Shown in pieces: positions 1 through 40,106 of a DNA stretch of 43,310 bases; position 1 is the first letter of the stretch; each line of letters begins with the position of its first letter. The position numbers and the translations under genes were made by a program. Origin of the DNA: a virus; the IMG/VR virus record IMGVR_UViG_3300045120_000521, positions 1 to 43,310 of that record. One strand, 5' to 3'. The notes under the pieces were generated by a model, which was not told the DNA's origin, did no database searches, and saw only the letters and a program-made list of their open reading frames with translations.

Positions 1-865
1 TCGGGTGCTCCGTCGTCAGCGTGTACTTGTCCGGCCAGGCGTGCGGCTTGTACGGCTCGGAGAAGAACAGCTGCTTGCCCATGAACGCCGCCATCATGCC
101 GTTGGGCAGGGCGATCAGGCCGCTCAGTCCGTCCGGCGGCGTGTCGAAGGGGATCGACGGGCATGGTTCGGCGGTGGCGTCGACCGGCACGGTGTCGTGA
201 AAGATGGTGGTCGCCGCGTCGATCTCGGCGATGAAATAGTAGTAGGAGCCGGCGGAGCCCGTCTGCAGGCGGTAGATGCGCTTCTTGGTGATGCCGCGGG
301 CGGGCGACGCCGGCGGTGCCAGCAGCCCCGACAGGTCGACGTATTGACCCGGCTTCCAGTCGACGTTGTCGGACACCGGCGACGGCGCGCTCTCCTCCTT
401 GATGCCGTTGAGGTCGGTGACGTAGGTGTAGATGTAGAGCCTGGACTGGATGTCCGTGCCGGTGGCGGTGCCGCCCAGCGCCACGGCGCACTTGGTTGTC
501 GGCGCCACCACGGCGAGGTCGTACTCGGTGCCGTCGGCGAGCCGCATCTTCGGTTTGCCGCCCGCCGGGTTAAGGTTGAGGTAGCCGTCGGTGTAGTACA
601 GCCGGTCGGTCGCCACGGGGGCGGGAGCCACCCAGATATTGGGGCTGTCCCAGCCGATCCAGTTATTGCTGAAATAGGTGATCGACTTCCACGTCGCCGA
701 CACGCCAACGTTATCCACGATCGGCGCGTCGCGCAGCGGCGTCAGGCCGCCGTCGTCGAGCCGCGTGTCGATCGCGGACTGCGCCGCCGTGTCGGGCAGC
801 AGCCGTGGCAGGATGCGTGGCTGCTCGCCGGAAAAGGCGGTGATGCTGATCGTCGGCGCCGGCAT
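1..865 (-). CDS. Virion protein, tail/nozzle-like (3' end outside window)
   Basis: The frame is open from ATG 865 to the window edge (288 codons seen, no stop), so the C-terminus is missing. The ATG overlaps the stop of the tail-fibre gene (TGATG). The N-terminus (MPAPTISITAFSG) is followed by beta-rich sequence with GxxYDLAVV, RLYIYTYVTDLNG and, near the break, LPNGMMAAFMGKQLFFSEPY then KPHAWP. The LPNGMMAxF...FSEPYxPHAWP pattern is familiar from large tail proteins of short-tailed phages. By position next to fibre genes I infer a tail nozzle or DNA-stabilisation protein of the T7 gp12 / P22 gp10 class. Family membership is not proven; any tail-tip structural protein would fit. Confidence 0.6.
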   Translation of the reverse strand, partial: MPAPTISITAFSGEQPRILPRLLPDTAAQSAIDTRLDDGGLTPLRDAPIVDNVGVSATWKSITYFSNNWIGWDSPNIWVAPAPVATDRLYYTDGYLNLNPAGGKPKMRLADGTEYDLAVVAPTTKCAVALGGTATGTDIQSRLYIYTYVTDLNGIKEESAPSPVSDNVDWKPGQYVDLSGLLAPPASPARGITKKRIYRLQTGSAGSYYYFIAEIDAATTIFHDTVPVDATAEPCPSIPFDTPPDGLSGLIALPNGMMAAFMGKQLFFSEPYKPHAWPDKYTLTTEHP

Positions 866-2475
866 CAGGCCAGCCTCTTCTCGAGCGCTTCGATCCTGAG
901 CTGGGCTTCCTGCAGCGCCTTCGTCAACATGGCGACCACCGGCAGCAGGTCGACGGACTGCAGATGCTCGCCGTCCTTCTCGCCGGCCGCCATGGTCGGC
1001 AGCGTCTCGGCCAGCTCGTGCGCGATGAAGCCGTAGCGTTCCAGGCCGTCCGCCTTGATGATCTCGTAGTCGCGATGCTTGTAGCTGATCGGCTTGAACG
1101 CCTTGATCCGCTCCCACGTCGAGTCGAGCGGCTTGACGTCCTGCTTGATGCGGTAGTCGCAGACGACGACGCCGGTGATCCGAAACAGGGTCTCGTCGAT
1201 GGTGATGCACGGCAAGCCGTCATACGAGAAATTGGCGTGGCTCGTCGTGTAGGAGGTGCTGCTCGCCTTGAGCTTGCAGCGCAGGCCCTGTCCGGCCAGC
1301 ACTTCACCGCTATTGGCGGCGTTGGCCGTAATGGCGCCGGTGGCGGTCAGGGCACCGCCGATGACCATGTTGCCGTTGAGGTCGATGGTGCTCTGGTTGG
1401 CGCTCGAGCCGCTGCCGTTGGGCCGGAAATAGATAGTGCCGTTGGTGGTCGTCCCCAGGATGGTGACGTTGTCGTTGCCCTTGAAGGTGTTGGCGACGCA
1501 GTCGAGGGTGACGTACAGGCTGTGGTAGATATAGGCGTTGCCGGTGTCGCGGATGACCTGGAAGACGGTGTCGCCGGCGGCGCCGGCGTTGTTGTAGCGG
1601 ATCAGGTTGAAGTTGCTGCCGATGTAGCCAGTGCCGCTCTCCGCCACGGTGTCGCCGAGCTGCATGATCCAGCGGTATTCGGAACCGTTCCTGGCGATCA
1701 GCTGGTTGGAGTGAGCGCCGGCGGTCTTGGTGAGGAAAAGCTGGCCGTAGCCGCTGGCGGCATTCGAGATGGTGAGCGTGTCGACGCTGACGTCGGCGAA
1801 ATCGAGCGCGCCGGCGACGGTGAGGCCGCCATTGGCGTAGAGCATGCCGGTCGCGGCCAGCGTCCCGGCGAAGGTGGCACCGGTGCTGTTCAGGGTGAGT
1901 TGGCCGCCAGCGACCCCGACACCGCCCGGCTGCAGGGAGATGGTGCCGGCCGTCGTCGGAGCGAGGCCGACGGTGGTTCCGGTGCCGACAAAGTAGCCGG
2001 CGGCGGAGGCGATGTTGCCGTTGGCCGTCAGCCCGCCGGTATCGTTCAGCGACATGATGTCGGTGCCGCTGAGGTCGTACTTGTCGTTCCAGACGAAGCG
2101 GCTCGGCGTCGTCCTGAAACCGATGCCGATGTCGGCCGGCACCGAATAGATCTTGTCGTGGATGGCGATCTCGTCCAGCGCCGCGCCGGTCAGGCGGACG
2201 TCGACGCGAGCATCGCCGGCAACGAAGCTGAGTATGCTGGTGCCTTCCTGGGCGCGGACGACGGTCAGGTTGACGCCGCTGCGCGCGGTGCAGCGCATGA
2301 CCTCGCGCTCGCCGGTCGACTTGGTGACGGTGACCGGGTGCCAGTCGCCGAGGCCGAGCGTCGGAAACTTGCCCTCGTCGCCGGCGGTGATCGACACGGT
2401 GAGATCGGTCGTCGGGTTGTTGCCGAGCGGCGACGACAGCAGCGACGTCGCGTTGTTGGTCATTTTGAGCGGCAT
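865..2475 (-). CDS. Tail fibre with C-terminal S74-type chaperone domain
   Basis: A 536-aa fibre. Residues 1-105 form an N-terminal domain (TNNATSLLSSPLG... RCTARSGVNLTVVRAQEGT) that is also at the start of the collar-type fibre at 3882-6188, so it is probably the virion anchor. The middle (about 150-430) is glycine/threonine-rich, as expected for a trimeric beta fibre. Residues 439-536 look like an intramolecular chaperone/auto-processing (peptidase S74) domain: CDYRIKQDV, then FKPISYKHRD, GFIAHELAETLP, and a final coiled coil (LTKALQEAQLRIEALEKRLA). In S74 domains the start of this motif is normally Ser-Asp-x-Arg-x-Lys with Ser and Lys catalytic; here Ser is Cys439 while Lys444 is kept. AGAGG lies 9 nt before ATG 2475, and a 16-nt leader element shared with the capsid gene lies further upstream. 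Confidence 0.85.
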   Translation of the reverse strand: MPLKMTNNATSLLSSPLGNNPTTDLTVSITAGDEGKFPTLGLGDWHPVTVTKSTGEREVMRCTARSGVNLTVVRAQEGTSILSFVAGDARVDVRLTGAALDEIAIHDKIYSVPADIGIGFRTTPSRFVWNDKYDLSGTDIMSLNDTGGLTANGNIASAAGYFVGTGTTVGLAPTTAGTISLQPGGVGVAGGQLTLNSTGATFAGTLAATGMLYANGGLTVAGALDFADVSVDTLTISNAASGYGQLFLTKTAGAHSNQLIARNGSEYRWIMQLGDTVAESGTGYIGSNFNLIRYNNAGAAGDTVFQVIRDTGNAYIYHSLYVTLDCVANTFKGNDNVTILGTTTNGTIYFRPNGSGSSANQSTIDLNGNMVIGGALTATGAITANAANSGEVLAGQGLRCKLKASSTSYTTSHANFSYDGLPCITIDETLFRITGVVVCDYRIKQDVKPLDSTWERIKAFKPISYKHRDYEIIKADGLERYGFIAHELAETLPTMAAGEKDGEHLQSVDLLPVVAMLTKALQEAQLRIEALEKRLA

Positions 2476-2495: not shown

Positions 2496-2511
2496 TCAGC
2501 ACGTCCTGCGC
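2496..2511 (-). promoter_or_regulatory. Leader element, S74 fibre gene copy
   Basis: Same 16-nt minus-strand sequence as 13105-13120, ending 20 nt before the fibre ATG and upstream of AGAGG. Flanking bases differ, so the identity is not simply a long duplication. Here the ribosome-binding site lacks a second GGA, so any CsrA-type control would be weaker than at the capsid gene. Confidence 0.45.
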
Positions 2512-2571
2512 CGGAGAGCCTGCACTATAGCCTGTGGGTCGACGTGTCTCCAGATTGCCGGATTGCGCCCA

Positions 2572-2898: not shown

Positions 2899-3190
2899 TT
2901 GAGACGCCTCCCTTCAGAGCTTCCAGGATGGACATGTTGCGGAACAGGCGATCGCCGGGCGCCTCTTTCATGTTCTGGTTGATGGCGGGCGGAACGGGAA
3001 TCGTCTCCACCGTCCATGCACCATTGCTGAACACCGCGTGCTGCTTCTTGGGGTTGGGCACAAACGGAGGTACTAAGTCCGTGGCATTCGCAGGGATCAG
3101 AAAATGACCGGGCTCCAGCGGATCTTCGTCCGCCTCTGACGACGTGTTGAGGTACACGCCGGTGTCAGCGCTGTAGTGATAAACAATCAT
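2891..3190 (-). CDS. Probable tail-fibre assembly/accessory protein
   Basis: A 99-aa protein. The N-terminal half (YHYSADTGVYLNTSSEADEDP, then LEPGHFLIPANATDLVPP) resembles the start of phage tail-fibre assembly chaperones, where a Y-x-S/P-x-TG-E/V-Y stretch and a 'DP...PG.YLIPANATxxxPP' segment are typical. A short acidic and hydrophobic C-terminus (NMSILEALKGGVSSE) follows. It sits between the two fibre genes and overlaps both neighbours. The family call rests on motif recall and position only. Confidence 0.6.
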   Translation of the reverse strand: MIVYHYSADTGVYLNTSSEADEDPLEPGHFLIPANATDLVPPFVPNPKKQHAVFSNGAWTVETIPVPPAINQNMKEAPGDRLFRNMSILEALKGGVSSE

Positions 3191-3897
3191 CTCTTCGCCC
3201 TTGCGTTTTTCCGATACCAGGCACGCTCAGATAGCACACAGCGGTCCTGGAGTTGGACACGGCGTTCCTCGGCTTCGGTTCTCGACCTAACCGCCATGTC
3301 GAACACCTCGCGTTTGAACGGAATGATCTGTACGAGCGGAGTACCCTTCCCGAGTGTGAACACCCCGTCCGGTCGCGTGAAATAGAACGGAATGTTGACC
3401 GGCAGATAGTATTCGTCCGTGTCCACGACGCCGGATATGACGTTGAAGATCGATGGCCGGTTCAATGGCTGTACAAACAGGCACGAATAGCCCGGTGCGG
3501 TCCTGATTGACCACGGCAAAACGAATTTCAAGATCACCTTGTTTTCGAACGGCGCATCCTTCACCTGAAATCCGAGATGCGAGCTGATCACTATCCCCGG
3601 ATACCGGGAATTGGTTCTCGCCGTGCCGCCGTTGCCGCTCAATTCCACGTCGATGTCGATAGGTGTCGGGACGATCCAGCCCTGTGACAGTGCGTCGAGG
3701 AACGGCAAGCAGCGCTTGACGGTGAACCCCGGCTCGTCTGCGGTGACTACCGACTTGTCGACCGGAGGCAGGTCTCTGTACCAGTCTGGCATGACCTTGT
3801 TGGCGGGCACTGGCGCAGCCACCGAACCCAGAAACTCCGGTTGGCATGTGAACTCGATCTTTGGACGACGCCGCAGCCATTTCAGTACTTGATGCAT
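3187..3897 (-). CDS. Conserved phage protein of unknown function (fibre cluster)
   Basis: A 236-aa protein. Visible blocks are MPDWYRDLPPVD near residue 37, FTVKRCLPFLDALSQGWIVP around 58-77 (with 'PIDIDVEL' after it), a beta-rich middle (SRYPGIVISSHLG, KFVLPWSIRTAPGYSCLFVQP, YYLPVNIPFYFTRPDGVFTL) and GTPLVQIIPFKRE near the end, then a basic helical tail. I have seen this 'MPDW..DLP...TVKRC.PFLDA...GY/WI.P' pattern in marine and other phages without an assigned function. The ATG lies 16 nt inside the end of the collar-type fibre gene. The location hints at modifying or helping the fibre, but nothing in the sequence proves it. Confidence 0.7.
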   Translation of the reverse strand: MHQVLKWLRRRPKIEFTCQPEFLGSVAAPVPANKVMPDWYRDLPPVDKSVVTADEPGFTVKRCLPFLDALSQGWIVPTPIDIDVELSGNGGTARTNSRYPGIVISSHLGFQVKDAPFENKVILKFVLPWSIRTAPGYSCLFVQPLNRPSIFNVISGVVDTDEYYLPVNIPFYFTRPDGVFTLGKGTPLVQIIPFKREVFDMAVRSRTEAEERRVQLQDRCVLSERAWYRKNARAKR

Positions 3898-11975: not shown

Positions 11976-13085
11976 TTACGCGTTCGGGTCCTTGGCCGCG
12001 GTGTCGATCGACAGCACACCGAAGTCCTTGCCGTTGAAGCGCGACTTCTTCACGCCCATGATGACACCGGCGGCGACCTTTGGCTCGTTGCCGTGGTCCG
12101 ACATCTCCTCGGTCCAGGTGAAGCGCAGCCCGCCGGCCGAGCCGTAGGCACAGACGCCGGCCTGACGGCCCATGAACAGCGCGCGTGCCGCCTTGACCGA
12201 GCCGGCCGGGTAACCGACGCCGTAATTGTCGAAGCGGATGACGTTCTCGTGGCTGTGCAGGACGACGTTGTCGATCATGCCCAGCCCGCCCTTGAAGATC
12301 GGGTTGTTACGGCCCTCGGCCTGCGCCGCGGCCTTCTGGATGTCGAGCCAGCCGCCGGAATCCGTCACCCGGAGATCGTACTCCTGAAACGGCGACATGA
12401 TCAGCACGTAATGCTGCTCGCCCTCGATGTTGATGGCGATCATATTGGCCGTTGTCGGGTCGAGCGCCCGCATCATCGTCGCCTTGACGGCGGCACGCTC
12501 GACGACGGCGCGGGTCATCACGTCGCCGACCACCAGCGTGGCAGCGGTGCCGGTGGCGGTGGGGTAGATGATGTGACCGGCATCCGGCGCGTCGATCGGG
12601 TTGCCGGCGAAACCCGCCCAGCTGATGTCCTCGATGTAGTCCTGGTTGATGCCGCGCGAGCCGGAGAGGTAGACGAAATTCATCTGGTCGATGTACTGCG
12701 ACCAGTAGTCGGACAGGCGGTCGCGGGCAATTGACCGGATATTATGGACGGTGCGCTTGCGGCTCATCTTGCCGCCGGCGGAGACGCCGTGCCGCATCTG
12801 GTCGATGTAGACCTGGTCGGTGAAGAACCGCAGGTTCTCTTCCTTACCCTCGAGGCGGTTGTCACCGGTCGTCGGCTTGTTCCTCAGCTGGACCGAGAGG
12901 TCGAAGCTGATCGTGTCGCCGGCGTCGGATTCGAGATCCGTCAGCCTTTGAATGACCGAGTTGTCGCTCTCCGACACGAATTTACGGTCGAAGTAGCCCT
13001 TGGTGAGGATGTCTAGGAAAAGCTGGCCTGACCAGCGCTTGACGGCTTTCGGATCACCGAAAGGAATTGTCGTCGGGCCTGCCAT
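11976..13085 (-). CDS. Major capsid protein, N4-gp56 family
   Basis: A 369-aa protein with hallmarks of the N4 gp56-type major capsid family: DAGDTISFDLSVQLRNKPTT, then GDNRLEGKEENLRFFTDQVY, IDQMRHGVSAGGKMSRKRTV, DRLSDYWSQYIDQMNFVYLS and, near the C-terminus, VAAGVIMGVKKSRFNGKDFG. Length is in the normal range for this HK97-fold family, with no obvious extra N-terminal scaffold domain; a separate scaffold gene lies just upstream. The ATG follows AGGAGG by 7 nt. The 140-nt leader holds a 16-nt element also found before the S74 fibre gene and a 33-bp tandem repeat. Confidence 0.93.
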   Translation of the reverse strand: MAGPTTIPFGDPKAVKRWSGQLFLDILTKGYFDRKFVSESDNSVIQRLTDLESDAGDTISFDLSVQLRNKPTTGDNRLEGKEENLRFFTDQVYIDQMRHGVSAGGKMSRKRTVHNIRSIARDRLSDYWSQYIDQMNFVYLSGSRGINQDYIEDISWAGFAGNPIDAPDAGHIIYPTATGTAATLVVGDVMTRAVVERAAVKATMMRALDPTTANMIAINIEGEQHYVLIMSPFQEYDLRVTDSGGWLDIQKAAAQAEGRNNPIFKGGLGMIDNVVLHSHENVIRFDNYGVGYPAGSVKAARALFMGRQAGVCAYGSAGGLRFTWTEEMSDHGNEPKVAAGVIMGVKKSRFNGKDFGVLSIDTAAKDPNA

Positions 13086-13104
13086 GAACGTGCCTCCTGG
13101 AAGG

Positions 13105-13120
13105 TCAGCACGTCCTGCGC
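13105..13120 (-). promoter_or_regulatory. Leader element, capsid gene copy (AGGA-loop hairpin)
   Basis: Minus-strand sequence GCGCAGGACGTGCTGA, identical to 2496-2511. As RNA, GCGC pairs with GUGC around an AGGAC loop. The element ends 19 nt before the capsid ATG, and its GGA is 18 nt from the GGA of the AGGAGG ribosome-binding site. A hairpin-loop GGA plus a second GGA over the ribosome-binding site is the layout of CsrA-regulated leaders. Confidence 0.5.
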
Positions 13121-13163
13121 TTTGCGCGAGAAATACCGCTAATGCGCCGTCGCGGCAAGCGGC

Positions 13164-13229
13164 GGCGATTTAGTGGCGATTTACGTATGCGGTTTCGGCG
13201 AATTAGCGGCGAATTACGTATGCTGTTTC
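13164..13229. repeat. 33-bp tandem repeat, two copies, upstream of capsid gene
   Basis: Two adjacent 33-bp units (13164-13196 and 13197-13229) match at 29 of 33 positions. Each contains the palindrome TACGTA and, further along, a GTTTC. The second unit runs into the stop codon of the CsrA-like gene. Being directly repeated in a non-coding gap before the most expressed structural gene, it may bind a regulator or form part of a late promoter; no clear -35/-10 pair is visible. Confidence 0.7.
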
Positions 13230-13440
13230 ATTTTGCGTAGACAGCCTCGAGCACGCGCCGCGCCGGTGCCACCAGGCCGTAGGTGTAGCGCGGCGGGATG
13301 ATGCCCTCTGCCAGCATGCGGATCGGCAGGTCGGTGAACAGCGACAGCTTCACCCGGCACCCGGATTTTTCCTCGACCCTGACCGCGGCGACATCGCCGA
13401 TCTCGATTGCCTCGCCAACGTGCAACGTCTTACTGAACAT
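13228..13440 (-). CDS. CsrA-like RNA-binding regulator
   Basis: A 70-aa protein that aligns without gaps to Escherichia coli CsrA over about the first 32 residues. T5, V8-G9-E10, I14-G15-D16, V20, V22, G27 and V30 are shared, covering the HVGEAIEIGD segment and beta strands. The RNA-contact Arg44 of CsrA is not at the same position (Ala44 here; Arg41 is near), and Arg6/Arg7 are Leu/His. A C-terminal extension (PPRYTYGLVAPARRVLEAVY) is longer than usual. CsrA proteins bind GGA motifs in mRNA leaders and control translation. The gene lies between scaffold and capsid genes, starting directly after the scaffold stop, so it is a late gene that could regulate capsid synthesis. Confidence 0.7.
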   Translation of the reverse strand: MFSKTLHVGEAIEIGDVAAVRVEEKSGCRVKLSLFTDLPIRMLAEGIIPPRYTYGLVAPARRVLEAVYAK

Positions 13441-13443
13441 CCT

Positions 13444-14418
13444 CTACGCCCCCTGCAGATAGGCGTCGCGGTCGGCCGGCGTCAGCTTGGCCAACGCCTT
13501 CTCGTAGTCGGCGCCCTTCAGCTTATCGAGCCGGGCGAACTTGTTGGGCTGCGTCACCACCGTCTGGTCGGAGGCGGGGATGTCCTTGAAGTTCGGCGGC
13601 AGCTCGCGCCGCGGTTTTTCCTTGCCGTTCTTCTTGGCCGGCTTGGCGCCGTCGACCTCGCCGAGCTCGGCGATGATCTTGGCGTGGGCATCGGCCAGGA
13701 TCTTCGGATCGGTCGGGTTGGTGGTCGCCAGCTGCGCCTCGCGCACCAGCGTGTCGAGCAGCTTGTGGCGGGCCGAACCGGTCACGTATTCGGTATGCTT
13801 GCTCAGGAACAGCGGAATGGTGACGTCGAACCAGGTCCGCTCGACGTTGTCGCGGCTGACCTTGGCCAGCACGCGCTTTTCCTTGAGCTCGTCCAGCTCG
13901 TCCTGCAGCACCTCCTGCTGATCGCGCATCTCGACCGCGGTCAGCTCGCCCTCGTCGAATTTCTGGGCGATCTCACGCATCTGCTTGGGGATGGCGGCCA
14001 GCCGCTTCTCCTCGGTCGGCGTCAGCTGCAGCGCCGGCCTGACCGCCTGCGGCTGCGCGGCTGCCGGCTCCGGCTCCCGTTCCGGCTCGCCGGCGGTGGC
14101 CGGCTCGTCCTCTGTGTCGTCCTCTGCGGCCTCGACGGGCTCGTCTTCCGCGGCCTCCTCCTCGCCGGACTCTTCCTCCTCCTCCTCCTCGGACTCGGGC
14201 TCGGGCTCAGCTTCGGCGGGCTTCTCTTTCGGCTCGGGCTCGGCCGCGACGACGGGCTCCTTGGCAGCGGCTTCCGGCTCACCTTTCGCCGCGGCGGCGA
14301 TCTCGGCGTCCTCGGCCTCGGTCTCGGCGTCCAGTTCGGCCAGGTGCTCCTTGAGACCGATGCGTTCTTCCTCGGTCAACAGGTCGAAATCGTCATCGCT
14401 GATCTTCATGCGTGGCAT
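13444..14418 (-). CDS. Probable capsid scaffolding protein
   Basis: A 324-aa protein between portal and major capsid genes, the normal place for a scaffold. Residues ~30-120 are extremely acidic (runs of Glu with Ala/Pro). Residues ~130-190 form a helical, coiled-coil-like stretch (LTPTEEKRLAAIPKQMREIA, QEVLQDELDELKEKRVLAKV), and the C-terminus is basic and helical (KFARLDKLKGADYEKALAKL). This acidic-coil-basic tail plan is that of tailed-phage scaffolds whose basic C-terminus binds the coat protein. AGGAGG precedes ATG 14418. Sequence-level homology is not shown; the call is from composition and order. Confidence 0.75.
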   Translation of the reverse strand: MPRMKISDDDFDLLTEEERIGLKEHLAELDAETEAEDAEIAAAAKGEPEAAAKEPVVAAEPEPKEKPAEAEPEPESEEEEEEESGEEEAAEDEPVEAAEDDTEDEPATAGEPEREPEPAAAQPQAVRPALQLTPTEEKRLAAIPKQMREIAQKFDEGELTAVEMRDQQEVLQDELDELKEKRVLAKVSRDNVERTWFDVTIPLFLSKHTEYVTGSARHKLLDTLVREAQLATTNPTDPKILADAHAKIIAELGEVDGAKPAKKNGKEKPRRELPPNFKDIPASDQTVVTQPNKFARLDKLKGADYEKALAKLTPADRDAYLQGA

Positions 14419-14427
14419 GGTGTCCTC

Positions 14428-16776
14428 CTAGGGGCCCGGTGGCGGTGCGCCGATACCGAGCTGTTGATCCGCACCGGGCTGCGGACCGCCGGGCTGCATG
14501 CCGGGCGGTGGTTGCTGTTGGGCAGCGGCCTGCTGCTGTTGCGCGGCGGCGGCTGCCGCCTGCATCTGGGCCAGCGCCGTCGCATCCTTGTCGGTCTGCG
14601 AGACGAAGCCGGACTCCGCCAAGATGTAATCCGCGACCTGCGCGGCGGCCGGCACCGATATCGCCACCTGCGCGGCGTCCAGCGCCTTCTGTTGCGCATC
14701 GACGTTGTGGCCGGGGATCTTGGCCATGGTCTCCTGCGCCAAGGCTGTAGCTTGATCCGCCTTGGCCATCGCTGCCTTGGCGTCGCCGATCGCCTTCTCC
14801 AGCTGCGCCCGCAGCAGCGCCTGCTGCATTGCCTGCTGCTGCGCCATCTGCTGCATGCGCTGCTGCTCCTCCGGCGTCGGCGTCTCGCTGTTCGGGTCGA
14901 ACTGGCCGGTGACCGAGCGGATGCGCTTGACGATCTCCTCGCGGTTGGGGAGGTCCATGTTCTCGACGGCGAGGTCGAGCAGCAGGATGGCGACTTCCGG
15001 CGGCAGCCGGCTCATCGCCTCCATCAGCTCGTCGGCGGCGGCCTGCCTAATGGTGGCGTGCCACGCCGCCTCGCTGATGACGAAGTCGGCCTTGTTGCGG
15101 GTGATGTCGTTGTCGGGCAGGCCGTCGTTGACGGTGACGTAGTCCGACTTGCCGCGCTGGTTGGTGATGCGGAACTGCTTCTCCTGATCCATGAACTGCT
15201 CGACGTTGGCGAGCAGTTTCTCGCCGTGCACCTGGCAGGCGAACAGGAGGTTGTCGAACAGCTTGGCGGTGGCCAGCGAGCCCTGGTCCTGCCGGCGCTG
15301 GATGGCGACGCCACTGGTCGCGTTGGTCTTGCGGCCGAGCAGCTCGTCGGTGACGCCACTGGCCTGCTGGATCATGTTGATGTCGCGGCTCATCAGCTCG
15401 AGGTGCCATTGAGCTAAGTCACGGTCCGCGTTGATGTCGATTTCCTTGCCCGGCATCTTGCGAATGATCGCATCCGGCCGGCTGACCTCCTCCTGGAACT
15501 CCTCGAAGCTCATGTCGTCGGGCAGCGCGTCGTAGTCCATGATGATCTTGGAGGTCGACAGGATGTGCAGCGCCTTCGACGCACGCTTGTTGACGTCGAC
15601 CTGGATGTCCTTGAGCCGGCGGATGACGCCGTAGGGCGCGCCGTCGCGGCCGCGGCGGTAGGCGAAGATCGGGGTCAGCGGAAAGCGGTTGTGCCGGTAG
15701 GGGCTCTCCGACCACCACAGCATGCCCGCCTCGGTGAACAGCCCGATGTGGACGCGCATGATGGTCTTCTCGACCAGCTGGGCGTCGCCGTTCTTGAGGT
15801 CGAGCTTGTGGCCGCCGGAGAAGGCGTCGAACATCTCGCCGTCGAAGGTGCCGCCCTTCATCTTGCCGGCGGTCACCGGCCGCTTGTACCAGCCCTCGAT
15901 GATGCGGACGCGCTGGCGCTGGAAGCCTTCGATGGCGCGCGACCCGGTGGTCGAGCCGTAGGCCTGCTCGAGCGCCATCTCCTGGCTGTCCATCGGCGCG
16001 TCGCCGTAGAGGTCGCGCTGGATGAAGTCGTCGCCGCGCTCGGCCGACGAGCGGAGCACGTCCTGACGCTTGGGGAACATGGCGATGGCGACGTCGAGGT
16101 CGACCCACTTCGAGCGGAAGATGTAGCGCCCGTCATTGACGTCGAGCTCGGTCGCCGCGGTGTCGTGCAGCACGTTGCGCCAGCTCTCGTAGCGGCTGTA
16201 GAGCGGCTCGTCCTCGCTGTCGCCGTCCAAACCATCTTCGATCCAGCCGATGCCGACCTTGACGGCGTCCTCGAAGGCCCGGGAGATGTGGAATGGTTCG
16301 CGGTTGACGTCCGAGAGGTACTTGAGCAGCGCCGTCTTCTTCTCGGCCTGCTTGGCCTGCTCCTTCTTGCGCGGCAGCACCTTGAAGTCGGTGCGGGCGC
16401 GTTTCTCGGAGCCTGAGATCCAGTCGATCGAGGTCGAGATGACGTTATAAACGAGAGGAACTTGCCCGCGATCGCGGAGCTGCTGGGCGTCGTCGGGATT
16501 CCACTGGATGTTGTCGTAGAAATCCTCGTCCTCGGCCATCTCGGCGCGGTTGTCGCCCTGTCTATCAAGTTCATCCGCGTAGCAGGCGAGCATCTGGTGA
16601 TGCAGGTCCTGCATGTCGGGGCTGTCGAGGTTGGTGGTCTTTGACGAGCCGCGGTCCGGCGTCTTCATCGAGGTGGTCGGCGGCAGGTGCGCCGGCATCG
16701 GGTCGCCGTAGGTCGACTTGTCCTTGACGCGGCGGACCGAACCGTCGTCGGCGCCGAGATCGAACATGTCAGCCAT
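14428..16776 (-). CDS. Portal protein (P22-type)
   Basis: A 782-aa portal, the length of P22-type portals (gp1). The N-terminal ~200 residues contain ADELDRQGDNRAEMAEDEDF, YDNIQWNPDD, GQVPLVYNVISTSIDWISGS and EKRARTDFKVLPRKK, all typical of this family, followed by FEDAVKVGIGWIE. Middle landmarks are PLTPIFAYRRGRDGAPYGVI, RRLKDIQVDVNKRASKALHI and the ASGVTDELLGRKTNATSGVA hinge, then AIQRRQDQG. The C-terminus (~620-782) is a long Gln/Ala-rich helical barrel and a Pro/Gly tail. It forms the dodecameric DNA channel at one capsid vertex. The ATG overlaps the preceding stop (TAATG). Confidence 0.9.
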   Translation of the reverse strand: MADMFDLGADDGSVRRVKDKSTYGDPMPAHLPPTTSMKTPDRGSSKTTNLDSPDMQDLHHQMLACYADELDRQGDNRAEMAEDEDFYDNIQWNPDDAQQLRDRGQVPLVYNVISTSIDWISGSEKRARTDFKVLPRKKEQAKQAEKKTALLKYLSDVNREPFHISRAFEDAVKVGIGWIEDGLDGDSEDEPLYSRYESWRNVLHDTAATELDVNDGRYIFRSKWVDLDVAIAMFPKRQDVLRSSAERGDDFIQRDLYGDAPMDSQEMALEQAYGSTTGSRAIEGFQRQRVRIIEGWYKRPVTAGKMKGGTFDGEMFDAFSGGHKLDLKNGDAQLVEKTIMRVHIGLFTEAGMLWWSESPYRHNRFPLTPIFAYRRGRDGAPYGVIRRLKDIQVDVNKRASKALHILSTSKIIMDYDALPDDMSFEEFQEEVSRPDAIIRKMPGKEIDINADRDLAQWHLELMSRDINMIQQASGVTDELLGRKTNATSGVAIQRRQDQGSLATAKLFDNLLFACQVHGEKLLANVEQFMDQEKQFRITNQRGKSDYVTVNDGLPDNDITRNKADFVISEAAWHATIRQAAADELMEAMSRLPPEVAILLLDLAVENMDLPNREEIVKRIRSVTGQFDPNSETPTPEEQQRMQQMAQQQAMQQALLRAQLEKAIGDAKAAMAKADQATALAQETMAKIPGHNVDAQQKALDAAQVAISVPAAAQVADYILAESGFVSQTDKDATALAQMQAAAAAAQQQQAAAQQQPPPGMQPGGPQPGADQQLGIGAPPPGP

Positions 16777-22861: not shown

Positions 22862-22884
22862 TCCGGCGGCAAATCGCCGCCGGA
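22862..22884 (-). promoter_or_regulatory. 5' leader hairpin of promoter 1
   Basis: Perfect 9-bp stem TCCGGCGGC / GCCGCCGGA with a 5-nt loop. It begins 5 nt after the -10 box, so it would form the extreme 5' end of the transcript. Same arrangement at two other promoters. Confidence 0.65.
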
Positions 22885-22888
22885 AACG

Positions 22889-22917
22889 TTCATAGACACA
22901 TTTTCACGCCGTGGCAA
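22889..22917 (-). promoter_or_regulatory. Early promoter 1 (for 222-aa gene)
   Basis: TTGCCA (-35, 22917-22912), 17-nt spacer, TATGAA (-10, 22894-22889). The spacer end and -10 read AAATGTGTCTATGAACG, shared with three other promoters of this region. The -35 lies in the end of the upstream gene. Confidence 0.65.
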
Positions 22918-24950: not shown

Positions 24951-24958
24951 CAAAAACG

Positions 24959-24987
24959 TTCATAGACACATTTAACCGGAACGTCGA
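24959..24987 (-). promoter_or_regulatory. Early promoter 2
   Basis: TCGACG (-35, 24987-24982), 17-nt spacer, TATGAA (-10, 24964-24959). TTAAATGTGTCTATGAACG is the best match to the shared consensus of the four promoters. Located between the genes starting at 24914 and ending at 24991. Confidence 0.65.
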
Positions 24988-26489: not shown

Positions 26490-29096
26490 TTAGCCGTTGC
26501 CGTCTCCATTTTCGTTTATGACGATATTCAAAAGTTTGTTGAACGCCTTCTCTGGGGCCAAAACCACCTTCTCCGCCTTGTCCAGCTGCTGTTTTATCTG
26601 GTGGGTGACGGCCTTCGTCCAGCGTTTTGCCGCCGCCTCGCTGAACGCGAAAACCGGCTCGCGATTATCCTCGCCGCTGCCGTAGCGGATCAGCCAATTG
26701 CTCTCGGTTGGGCGTTTGACGCCGATACGATGGCCGTTGCTGAACGTATGCTTGCGTACCAGGCCATCGAAGTCGCTGTTATGGTGCGTTCTTGCGAAGT
26801 GCCGCGTCACCATGATGACCTGGCTCATCGTGTACAGCTCGGTCGCCGTCTCCAGCTTGGCGACCGCCATGTCCCATGCGTGGTCGATCACCGTCTTGCC
26901 GGCGTCGATCATCAGGTCGCGCCCACGGAAGTGCGGCGCCATGTACGGGTCGAAGATCCGTCGATCCTGTTCGACCGGCGTGTCACGCAGATAGCGGTAC
27001 AGCGCACCGATGTTGGCCGGGTCCTCCATCCACGCGCGGTACTGCTTGATCTCCTCCGCCGTCATCTGCGGTCCATTTATCATTATGGCGAAGCGCCGAT
27101 CGGCCTCGTCGAGCGGCAGCCCGTTGATGTTGTTGGTGAAGATCAGCGTCGATACGGCCGCCCGGGTGTAATAGGCGTCGATGCCCTTCGGCTCGACCCT
27201 GAACGGCACGCCGTGGTTGGGCTCGATGAAGTCCTTAAGCGAATCGCGCGTCGAGCCGCGGTGATAGAACTTGTGCCCGTCCGGCGTCGCCGCCTCGTTG
27301 ACGTGCAGCAGCAGCCGGCCCTCGATCTCGGCGTTGAACTTTGCCCCGCCCGATATGTTGGCGTAGGGCATCGACACCACGAACCGCTCGCCCAGCACGC
27401 GCTGCAGGGTCTCCGCCAGCAGCCCGCGCCCGCTGCCGTTGTCACGCGCCACCATCACCACCGCGACCATCCGCCAGTGCGGCTGTTGCACTAGCAACCG
27501 CGCCCAGTTGATGAACCATTCGCCCTCCTCGTCGTTCGGCACCATCGCCTTTTGCCGCGCCAGGAACGGCCCTAGATCGCCGCCCTTCGCCGGGTGCACC
27601 GGCGGTGCGTAGCGGTTGACGTACAGAAGCTCATCCTCGCGGAACAACGGCCGCGGCAGCTCCGGCCGCATGCGGATGCCGTAGACGTTGATCTTTTGCG
27701 GATGCGCCATCCACGCCGCCGCCGGGTTGCGGAAATGCCTCCCCTGGCGCGGTCCCTCTTGGGTCCAACCGAAACTGGCCATAGAGCCAGCCAGCGCGGC
27801 GACAGTGATCGGCGCCTGCCATTCGCCGTCGGCATGGATGGAAACCACGCCGCCGCGGCCTTTGAAGGCGTTGGCGTAGTAGGCGACGTTCTCCAGCAGC
27901 CAGTCGCGCGCATTGTCGTGCGTCGCCTGCTCGGTGTCGCCTTGTGGGATGGCCTCGCGCCGCGTCGAGCGCGACTCCGTCGTGTCGGATGTGTCGGATG
28001 TGTCGGATGTGTCGGATGTGTCGGATGCCGTTTCGGCGTCGTCGGGCGACAGCGCCGCCAGTACCGCGCGCACTTCGTCGGTGAGCTGGACAGGCGCCGC
28101 CGGGCGGTCCGCCTCCATGTAGTGCAGCTGCTCGTTCTTGTAGTCCTTGACCGCGATGCGGCCGCTGACCGAGACGTACAAATTGCAGTTGGCGTGGCCG
28201 CGCGAGCCCTCCAGCGTCCACGGCAGGCAGCCGCGGATGCCGTTGATGGCATCGCGGTCGAGGCCGCCGGTGAGCTCCTCCAGCGTGCCGCGCGGGCCGT
28301 TCAGGGGATGGAACAGGGTTTCCGGCTTGAGATCGTAGAGCACGTCGCCACCGATCCGCTCGGGCTCGGGGATTCGCGTCAGCTGCTTGGCGAGGATCGC
28401 GTCGGCGCGGTCGATCAGCGGTCCGGCCTCGATCGGTAGATGCGGCAGCTCGTTGACGCGGGTGTTCCACGGCGCCCGCTCGCCGCAATGGTACTGCCTG
28501 CCCTCGCTATGCGGGCCCTCGTAGACGAACAGGCGGCCCTGCGACAGCGGCCCGAACAGCTCGACCTTCTGCGGCTCCAGCGCGTCGAGGATGATGTTGA
28601 TGCGCTGCCGCTTGGCCAGGATCTCGGCCTCCTCGCTCTCCGGCATGGCGTGCGCCGCGTCGAGCTCGACCAGCAGCTCGGGGTTGGCGGTGTAGCTGTG
28701 CGTCTGGCGTTTCCTGAACGGCGCGTCGCTGCGGAAGAACAGCGCCACGCTGACCCGTTCGGAATCGCGCAGGATGGCGGCGTTGAACGCCTCCGGGTCG
28801 ATTGAGAAGAAGTCGTCGAGCACCAAATCGGCGACCGCAGGAATTGAGATATCGCAGTCGTAGACTGCAAGATTGCCGGTGACCCGCACGCCGGTGCTGG
28901 CATAGTAATCGCTGTTCATCCAGTCGCGGTGTGACCTGATCGCCGCCTCGTCGCAGGCGATGCGTGGCCAGCCGCGGCAGCCCCGCTTGAAGTGGCATGG
29001 GCACTGCATCCAGCCGTTGCGTGACGCAGCGAGACGGTGATCGAGTAACGGATGGGTGTTGATACGGGGGGTTTTTGGCGCTAAGGAATTGGCCAT
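26490..29096 (-). CDS. Primase-helicase: prim-pol-like N-terminus with SF3 ATPase
   Basis: An 868-aa replication protein. The N-terminal ~330 residues resemble a prim-pol (archaeo-eukaryotic primase) domain: STGVRVTGNLAVYDCDISIP near residue 68, a SVALFFRSDAPF strand and later PWTLEGSRGHANC. Residues ~357-371 are a low-complexity (SDT)5 linker coded by a 9-bp repeat. The C-terminal half is an SF3-type ATPase: NWARLLVQQPHWRMVAVVMV, then a Walker A ARDNGSGRG in which the usual Lys is Arg557, Walker B GRLLLHVNEAA, and sensor VSTLIFTNN. AGAGGA stands 8 nt before ATG 29096. Expected to prime and unwind DNA at the fork with the PolA coded on the plus strand. Confidence 0.85.
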   Translation of the reverse strand: MANSLAPKTPRINTHPLLDHRLAASRNGWMQCPCHFKRGCRGWPRIACDEAAIRSHRDWMNSDYYASTGVRVTGNLAVYDCDISIPAVADLVLDDFFSIDPEAFNAAILRDSERVSVALFFRSDAPFRKRQTHSYTANPELLVELDAAHAMPESEEAEILAKRQRINIILDALEPQKVELFGPLSQGRLFVYEGPHSEGRQYHCGERAPWNTRVNELPHLPIEAGPLIDRADAILAKQLTRIPEPERIGGDVLYDLKPETLFHPLNGPRGTLEELTGGLDRDAINGIRGCLPWTLEGSRGHANCNLYVSVSGRIAVKDYKNEQLHYMEADRPAAPVQLTDEVRAVLAALSPDDAETASDTSDTSDTSDTSDTTESRSTRREAIPQGDTEQATHDNARDWLLENVAYYANAFKGRGGVVSIHADGEWQAPITVAALAGSMASFGWTQEGPRQGRHFRNPAAAWMAHPQKINVYGIRMRPELPRPLFREDELLYVNRYAPPVHPAKGGDLGPFLARQKAMVPNDEEGEWFINWARLLVQQPHWRMVAVVMVARDNGSGRGLLAETLQRVLGERFVVSMPYANISGGAKFNAEIEGRLLLHVNEAATPDGHKFYHRGSTRDSLKDFIEPNHGVPFRVEPKGIDAYYTRAAVSTLIFTNNINGLPLDEADRRFAIMINGPQMTAEEIKQYRAWMEDPANIGALYRYLRDTPVEQDRRIFDPYMAPHFRGRDLMIDAGKTVIDHAWDMAVAKLETATELYTMSQVIMVTRHFARTHHNSDFDGLVRKHTFSNGHRIGVKRPTESNWLIRYGSGEDNREPVFAFSEAAAKRWTKAVTHQIKQQLDKAEKVVLAPEKAFNKLLNIVINENGDGNG
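27982..28026. repeat. 9-bp microsatellite (5 copies) in primase-helicase gene
   Basis: Five perfect copies of GTGTCGGAT (plus-strand reading), in frame, coding an (SDT)5 linker between the primase and helicase halves. Copy changes would alter linker length without a frameshift. Confidence 0.9.
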
Positions 29097-39287: not shown

Positions 39288-40106
39288 ATGGCAACTAACG
39301 TAACCCGGCCGATCGGCACCACACTGTCGGACGATTTCCTTGACCAGCTGGTCAGCGGCATCGCCGATTCACGCTCCCGGACGCCCTCTTCGGGCGGCAA
39401 GCCGCTGCTCCGGCTGCTGAAGAGCGGTGTCTGGGTATTCGGCCAGTCCAACGAGCCCGTGCAGGAAGGCAGCGAGTGGGCGATCAACCCCAAGCAGATG
39501 GGCCACGGCTGGGTCTGCTGGACGAGCTACTCCGACTCCAAGACCACCAACGAGAAGCTCGGCGAGGTGATGGTGCCGGTCTTCCAGCCGATGCCGGAGC
39601 GGCCGGAGCCGGTGCGCGGCTTCGAGTATGCGGCGCAACGCTCGTTCGAGCTGAAATGCATGACCGGCGACGACGAAGGCGAAGAGGTGCTCTACAAGAC
39701 CGCCAGCGACGGCGGCTTGTCGGCCGCCAACAATTTCTTCGCCGAGTTCACCGCGCGCGTCAACGTCGTCGCGAACCGCCCGTGGCCCGTCGCCATCGTC
39801 CAGTTGTTGGTCACCGACTACGACCACAAGAAGTGGGGCCAGACCTTCAAGCCGGTGTTCGAGATCACCGGCTGGGCGGACATGAATGGCGAGCGCGACA
39901 CCCGGGCTCGCGGGGCCGCGCCGATCGCCGCCAAGGTTGCCGCGGCAGCCCCGGCGAAGCGCGTCAAGGCGCCGTTGCAGACGGCCGCCCAGACGCCGCA
40001 GCAGGAAGCGGCCGACGAGCCGGCCCCGGAGACGGCATCGCCTGCCGCCGCCACGCTGCGCCCCGGTGCAGCGCCGCGCCGCCAGCGGCCTGCCAACCGT
40101 GCTTAA
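39288..40106 (+). CDS. Probable phage ssDNA-binding protein (DUF2815-like slot)
   Basis: A 272-aa protein between the DUF2800 nuclease and PolA, the slot usually filled by a ssDNA-binding/annealing protein. The first ~200 residues are a beta-rich domain (PLLRLLKSGVWVFGQSNEPV, SEWAINPKQMGHGWVCWTSY, FEYAAQRSFELKCMTGDDEG, WPVAIVQLLVTDYDHKKWGQ); the last ~70 are Ala/Pro/Lys-rich and disordered. Unlike most SSBs the tail ends basic (RRQRPANRA), not acidic. AGGAG precedes ATG 39288. Function by position, moderately sure. Confidence 0.55.
   Translation: MATNVTRPIGTTLSDDFLDQLVSGIADSRSRTPSSGGKPLLRLLKSGVWVFGQSNEPVQEGSEWAINPKQMGHGWVCWTSYSDSKTTNEKLGEVMVPVFQPMPERPEPVRGFEYAAQRSFELKCMTGDDEGEEVLYKTASDGGLSAANNFFAEFTARVNVVANRPWPVAIVQLLVTDYDHKKWGQTFKPVFEITGWADMNGERDTRARGAAPIAAKVAAAAPAKRVKAPLQTAAQTPQQEAADEPAPETASPAAATLRPGAAPRRQRPANRA

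Follow-up and report, generated by a model that had tools for sequence, protein, structure and literature searches.

We asked what a gene for a small CsrA-like protein does between the scaffold-like and capsid genes of the viral sequence IMGVR_UViG_3300045120_000521 (43,310 nt, analysed as a whole and referred to here as the window), and on which RNA its product might act. The initial annotation had proposed translational control of late genes by this protein, with a dimer bridging one GGA in a hairpin of the capsid leader and another in the ribosome-binding site. Membership of the CsrA superfamily and control at the RNA level through the leader element were upheld in our analysis, but bridging of GGA sites by an ordinary dimer was not. 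The features concerned are listed in Table 1.

Table 1. Features of the window discussed in the text, with the evidence for each.
Feature	Coordinates	Strand	Evidence
CsrA-like protein gene (70 aa, ATG start)	13228..13440	-	ORF; PHROG 8397; profile; fold; synteny
Scaffold-like gene, immediately upstream of the CsrA-like gene	13444..14418	-	PHROG 8246 E 1e-45
Portal protein gene	14428..16776	-	PF16510 E 3e-180
Major capsid protein gene, downstream of the leader	11976..13085	-	PF13252 E 2.6e-66; PHROG 334
Hairpin A, capsid leader, GCGC-AGGAC-GUGC	13108..13120	-	exact sequence; kept in relatives; outer pair covaries
Shine-Dalgarno AGGAGG of the capsid gene, containing the second GGA	13093..13098	-	sequence
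Helix B 5′ strand, GGACGUGCU, overlapping the 3′ half of hairpin A	13107..13115	-	minimum-energy fold -25.4 kcal/mol; covariation in relatives
Helix B 3′ strand, GGCACGUUC, directly before the capsid ATG	13086..13094	-	minimum-energy fold -25.4 kcal/mol; covariation in relatives
Putative sigma70-type promoter, TTGCCG, 16 nt, GTATTT	13131..13158	-	sequence; inference
S74-type tail fibre gene with second element copy	865..2475	-	PF13884 E 3.4e-6; PHROG 8469
Hairpin A, second copy, S74-fibre leader	2499..2511	-	exact match
Putative -10 box TATAGT, before the second copy	2524..2529	-	sequence; inference

The fixed order of portal, scaffold-like, CsrA-like and capsid genes is common to the window and to Bcep22-like podoviruses, and relatives of the CsrA-like gene occupy the same place in phages of Burkholderia, Erwinia, Serratia, Klebsiella, Pseudomonas and Ochrobactrum, several of them annotated as CsrA-like. 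By homology and by its position between the scaffold-like and capsid genes, the window gene belongs with the CsrA-like regulators of Bcep22-like phages. Its ORF starts 3 nt past the stop codon of the scaffold-like gene, a spacing that points to a single operon for the two; the probable scaffold role of the upstream product is suggested by its position.

Single-sequence searches with the window protein returned no match in Pfam or NCBIfam, and a search of the window genome with PF02599 was likewise empty, so profiles were needed. PHROG 8397 ('CsrA-like regulator') matched the protein with an E-value of 5.7e-5, E-values being modest for a window protein of 70 aa, and matched 27 of 30 family members. 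A profile of these 30 members reached CsrA chains of the PDB with an E-value of 6e-8, and half of them (15/30) matched PF02599 at E-values up to 1 (best 8e-10), the window member alone giving none. The AlphaFold2 model of the window protein (19 sequences) had a pLDDT of about 90 over residues 1-40, and the best alignments of this monomer model were to RsmA/CsrA (VIA-align, Z 5.6, 2.4 Å over 49 residues, a modest Z for a short protein); all eight structural matches listed were CsrA or RsmA, with Z up to 5.6. Foldseek E-values exceeded 0.001 in both libraries, and structural and homology weight was therefore placed on the profile and the VIA-align result. The likeness to CsrA noted initially is thus borne out by PHROG 8397, by the family profile against the PDB and by the predicted fold, and these comparisons support assignment of the 70-aa product to the CsrA superfamily, with the five-strand CsrA fold predicted by the model.

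Residues associated with RNA binding were unevenly kept. Among 161 family members, arginine or lysine is found at position 7 in 125, at position 31 in 130 and at position 44 in just 69. In the window protein position 7 is His, and in its clade the region of position 44 reads PIRM or a similar sequence. The initial annotation had Ala in place of Arg44, which is correct by ungapped residue number; in the gapped alignment the corresponding residue of strand β5 is Met42, with an Arg one residue before. The canonical Arg44 of strand β5 is absent from the window protein in this alignment. Arg44 is essential for RNA binding by E. coli CsrA (PMC7652899), and its absence is the main concern for putative RNA binding by the window protein.

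The capsid leader of the window contains the hairpin that had been described as an AGGA loop on a GCGC/GUGC stem, with a loop that is strictly 5 nt long (AGGAC), and the second GGA lies in the ribosome-binding site 18 nt beyond it, as claimed. The loop includes GGA and lacks ANGGA, and so departs from the canonical CsrA target. Recurrence of the element before the S74 fibre gene was also confirmed, the 16-mer GCGCAGGACGTGCTGA occurring exactly twice, in the capsid and S74-fibre leaders. The 13-mer GCGCAGGACGTGC likewise occurs twice, each time 20-40 nt before a late-gene start, against 0.007 copies expected from simulation with the dinucleotide frequencies of the window, and these two were the only ones of 19 leftward starts checked in the window to have it. 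Counts allowing two mismatches were not above chance (22 found, 28.7 expected), and only the exact copies in leaders therefore matter. The element would start near +5 to +10 of a putative sigma70-type promoter; in relatives, the most frequent position of a TATAAT-like hexamer is 19-21 nt upstream of the element. Rfam, at the gathering score, gave no match in the window or in six relatives. Folding of the window leader gave -25.4 kcal/mol with a second helix (helix B) and -16.8 kcal/mol with hairpin A forced, making A about 8.6 kcal/mol less stable; the stability of the leader by itself was not unusual (z -1.4).

Capsid leaders of relatives are little alike almost everywhere save at the element. 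Of 82 distinct capsid leaders, 73 contain a hairpin whose loop reads ANG(G)A(N) and whose stem has 4 bp or more; among shuffled leaders the share is 6.5%. The outermost of the four stem-A pairs, which the search pattern left free, was G-C, U-A, A-U, C-G or G-U in all 62 leaders in which it was scored; shuffles gave 72%, and none of 2000 reached 62/62. Covariation in stem A amounted to 17 double-changed cells, matched by none of 500 shuffles. In the combined non-redundant set of 110 leaders the first four pairs are paired by construction, and the evidence for stem A is accordingly drawn from the 62-leader tests and from pairs beyond these four (pair 5, 60% against 43% in shuffles; pair 6, 63% against 41%). 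Counted from the loop, the second pair is a G-U wobble in nearly every leader. This pair, the inner C-G pair and the first A of the loop are nearly invariant and not all needed by helix B, which suggests a ligand. The loop corresponds to the CsrA consensus CANGGANGU (PMC6692469, PMC7652899) minus one G: GGA lies inside it in 52 of the 110 leaders, and the full ANGGAN loop is present in two. The variable loop base N was considered as a phage-specific protein code and dropped, as the copies within Itty13, Skulduggery and Parlo differ in N.

The bases that immediately precede the start codon form a complement to the 3′ half of the element. This complement, helix B, changes in step with the element across leaders (GACGUGC/GCACGUC, GAUGUGC/GCACAUC, GAGUGC/GCACUC, GAAGUGC/GCACUUC and GGACGCG/CGCGUCC), and where N is U it can extend into the AUG, as in POI1126 (CAUGACGUG with CACGUCAUG). 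The mean pairing score was 17.3 with a leader's own pre-AUG segment, 13.0 (sd 0.4) when segments were swapped among leaders and 10.8 when they were shuffled; an exact complement of the leader's own 5-mer was present in 32 of 62 leaders, against 8 of 310 for complements of other types. For leaders with a perfect complement, the capsid tree implies no fewer than 12 changes in helix-B type, and the spacing between the halves differs among leaders. Folding of the RNA alone gave helix B in 60 of 62 leaders, with a mostly closed start region (median accessibility 0.21). Helices A and B share one strand and are therefore mutually exclusive. A two-helix RNA switch in capsid leaders, real and conserved, is thus well supported by the leader comparisons; in the second copies covariation of helix B is weak, 53 of 2000 swaps reaching the observed value.

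We next scored how often the gene and the element co-occur, under strict definitions, in viral loci and in the prophages of 80 bacterial contigs. Both were present in 100 loci and neither in 13, with 18 loci having the element only and 14 the gene only (Fisher p 5e-4), an association partly confounded by shared ancestry and synteny. Most element-bearing loci have a CsrA-like ORF before the capsid gene, and most of the exceptions proved less clear-cut when examined. Many of the element-only loci are Rhizobiales phages, and a search of bacterial genomes for the CsrA-like gene gave matches in five. PBC5 and Atu_ph08 keep the element at the capsid gene with the CsrA-like gene far from it, which in Atu_ph08 directly follows the portal and scaffold-like genes. 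The gene-only loci have mostly near variants of the hairpin, with AGAA or UGGA loops for example. Relatives with the gene but without the element, named at the outset as a refuting result, were hence not the rule: the element, or in most of the exceptions a near variant of it, is kept even where the gene lies far from the capsid gene. Loci with neither include L193, L194, L197, L208, L210 and L236 together with four distant phages; six prophages without a CsrA-like ORF before the capsid gene had no such element in the capsid leader. A search for capsid relatives of a Vibrio control phage yielded one locus.

Copies of the element are not confined to capsid leaders. A scan of 29 genomes with the exact pattern gave 48 matches, compared with 12 for the reversed pattern, and many non-Burkholderia relatives carry, besides one copy at the capsid gene, at least one more before other late genes. 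These lie before endolysin or lysis genes in PEp14, Pavtok, Stean, LASTA, SopranoGao, ZX1, Skulduggery, Itty13, PBC5, Atu_ph08 and Parlo (Klebsiella phages included). The window, Mwe-JY07 and POI1126 carry one before an S74 gene, and the five copies of POI1126 are at the genes for the capsid, a virion protein, S74, darB and the endolysin. Exact second matches in Burkholderia phages were left uncounted: the DC1 match falls within the coding sequence of darB, and the matches in JC1, CSP3 and BcepMigl share the same flanking sequence.

The reading we favour, and hold to be probable rather than assured on the strength of these comparisons, is that the CsrA-like protein binds hairpin A, blocks helix B and thereby switches on late translation of capsid and fibre genes. 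The capsid and S74-fibre mRNAs would start with a two-state RNA switch. In state B, the stabler one for the RNA alone, the 3′ half of the element ([N]GA-x-GUGC) would pair just before, and sometimes including, the start codon and exclude ribosomes; in state A the same 3′ strand would form the short hairpin GCGC-ANGA(Y)-GUGC, which presents a CsrA-type recognition loop. The protein, expressed from the operon of portal and scaffold, would bind hairpin A as the RNA emerges and prevent helix B, turning on translation of the capsid and of other late products (fibre, lysis or darB genes, according to the phage), so that capsid production and lysis would be delayed until portal and scaffold are made. 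Sequence comparison supports the two helices, which are conserved and recur before late genes, and the place of the protein in the CsrA superfamily; the protein as ligand, activation by its binding, and the dependence of capsid and lysis on portal and scaffold are inferred. Hairpin A being about 8.6 kcal/mol weaker than helix B in the window, binding would have to be tight or co-transcriptional. Also against this reading, GGA, which is invariant in CsrA SELEX ligands, occurs in just 52 of the 110 loops.

A conserved alternative helix that closes the ribosome site indicates activation rather than repression. The model of the initial annotation, in which a CsrA-like dimer bridges the hairpin loop and the Shine-Dalgarno GGA and delays capsid and fibre translation, draws on repression being the commonest mode of CsrA action and on the spacing of the two GGA motifs in the window, whose 18 nt fall within the 10-63 nt range of CsrA bridging (PMC7652899). 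Against it, 58 of the 110 loops lack GGA, Arg44 is not kept in the window protein, and the coevolution of the helix-B complement with the element is left unexplained; a repressor would also be redundant, as the RNA alone closes the ribosome site through helix B. Paired GGA sites are thus not the conserved feature, and since the GGA on the Shine-Dalgarno side is not what coevolves, we regard bridging repression as distinctly unlikely. A protein-operated ON switch would call for just this combination, a weak but conserved hairpin whose loop hardly varies, competing with a stable helix that hides the ribosome site, and together with the precedents of ymdA and Com discussed below this favours activation.

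The identity of the ligand is a separate matter. The switch may be real and answer to another phage protein, a host RNA-binding protein or an RNase, or to co-transcriptional folding alone, with the CsrA-like protein serving as a virion part or in host manipulation, say. One peptide of the JC1 homologue was detected in virions (PMC9144972), the gene was termed a moron by its authors, and key RNA-binding residues are not uniformly kept. The loop nevertheless fits the CsrA site pattern, with the canonical ANGGAN in two leaders, most loci have either both gene and element or neither, and hosts such as Sinorhizobium meliloti and Burkholderia cepacia are reported to be without a chromosomal csrA (PMC7366521); we consider a different ligand unlikely, though it is an alternative of some weight. 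It is very improbable that the element is a DNA operator or part of a promoter. It does lie just past a -10-like box in many leaders, oriented with the gene, but compensatory changes in two different helices, A-U, U-A and G-U pairs included, variants that differ inside one genome (PBC5 has GAGUGC at the capsid gene and GACGUGC at the endolysin gene) and the varying distance between halves are those of an RNA structure. As for a chance meeting of a short CsrA-like protein with an unrelated GC-rich repeat, the missing Pfam CsrA match for the window member alone and the modest E-values at 70 aa are outweighed by the family profile, by synteny in many genera and by element conservation far above shuffles; the comparative results already refute this reading, which can hardly be credited.

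The favoured switch has partial parallels. In E. coli, CsrA activates ymdA by opening a hairpin that hides the Shine-Dalgarno sequence (PMC7492729); in the phage leaders, too, an mRNA structure conceals the ribosome site and would be opened by binding to the leader. The phage system, where binding is putative, differs in its two explicit alternative helices, which have one strand in common and coevolve across a phage group. Com of phage Mu is also a small phage protein, reported to activate translation of mom by altering the structure of the initiation region (PMC6483171); it is a zinc-finger protein rather than a CsrA, and its reported target is mom mRNA, not capsid or lysis mRNAs. With CsrA, RsmA and RsmE the phage family shares the fold, the core motifs GE, IGD and G27, R7 in most relatives (His7 in the window) and a hairpin-loop target resembling the consensus. 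It differs in that the phage loop is usually one G short (ANGA(N) rather than ANGGAN), Arg44 is not conserved, and the protein appears to serve late leaders of the phage rather than the host Csr network.

The gene family itself is already known. Phage csrA alleles have been catalogued, including those of DC1, Bcep22, Parlo, PEp14, SopranoGao, Pavtok and Skulduggery (PMC7366521), and the JC1 gene has been called a moron whose product is possibly virion-associated (PMC9144972). The Bcep22-like CsrA-like regulators (gp46/gp47/gp49 of Lessievirus and homologues in Pavtokvirus, Lastavirus and Parlovirus; PHROG 8397) share protein family and gene position with the window, and their capsid leaders also have the element. 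They were published as moron or host-affecting genes (PMC9144972, PMC10269572), with no RNA target or leader switch described there; compared with them, proteins of the window clade are longer in their C-terminal part and no longer carry the Arg44-type residue. Knock-down of the csrA homologue of E. coli phage PTXU04 gave smaller plaques (PMC11879866); PTXU04 was absent among the Escherichia phages whose capsid matched that of the window. No account of the RNA switch was found in the papers examined or in the titles and abstracts searched.

Phage csrA genes have so far been listed as mobile or moron genes, with action on the host proposed and no known target (PMC7366521, PMC9144972). A conserved switch on capsid and lysis mRNAs offers them a directly testable target, and its presence before capsid, lysis and fibre genes suggests how these phages time late protein production. 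More broadly, and tentatively, since we rate this at somewhat less than even, a domesticated CsrA with altered RNA specificity may be a dedicated translational activator in a large group of proteobacterial podoviruses and prophages, acting through a purpose-built bistable leader common to capsid, fibre and lysis mRNAs so that synthesis of portal and scaffold licenses capsid synthesis and lysis. If true, this would be a CsrA system devoted to the timing of virus assembly, a case in which the recognition code of CsrA has changed, and a clear checkpoint for late genes at the level of RNA in DNA phages.

Several further observations were made in passing. A Geobacter prophage (L209) has a 155-aa ORF with a CsrA-like N-terminal part and a long C-terminal extension that ends ~60 nt before the capsid gene, with no clear element in the capsid leader. 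The record IMGVR_UViG_3300021067_000009 (L031) encodes a second, full-strength CsrA (39795-39950, plus strand; PF02599, 86.7 bits, E 5e-26) in addition to the diverged CsrA-like gene near its capsid gene. In PBC5 and Atu_ph08 (L032 and L033) an endolysin gene on the opposite strand, with an integrase gene nearby, precedes the capsid gene, and the capsid and endolysin leaders each have the element, on opposite strands. Within the window, the stretch between the stop codon of the CsrA-like gene and the proposed capsid promoter contains a tandem pair of 33-nt repeats (13163-13228, 88% identical), which were not seen in the leaders of the near relatives L006-L010. A gene between the tail-fibre genes (3187-3897, minus strand) encodes a DUF6065 protein (PF19541), and the large protein of the ORF at 26490-29096 (minus strand) contains an in-frame short repeat at about 27950-28080 that encodes SDTSDTSDTSDT. 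An exact 20-nt repeat, AAATGTGTCTATGAACGTTT, occurs on the minus strand at 22884-22903 and 24954-24973, about 2 kb apart, and is possibly a promoter or operator pair.
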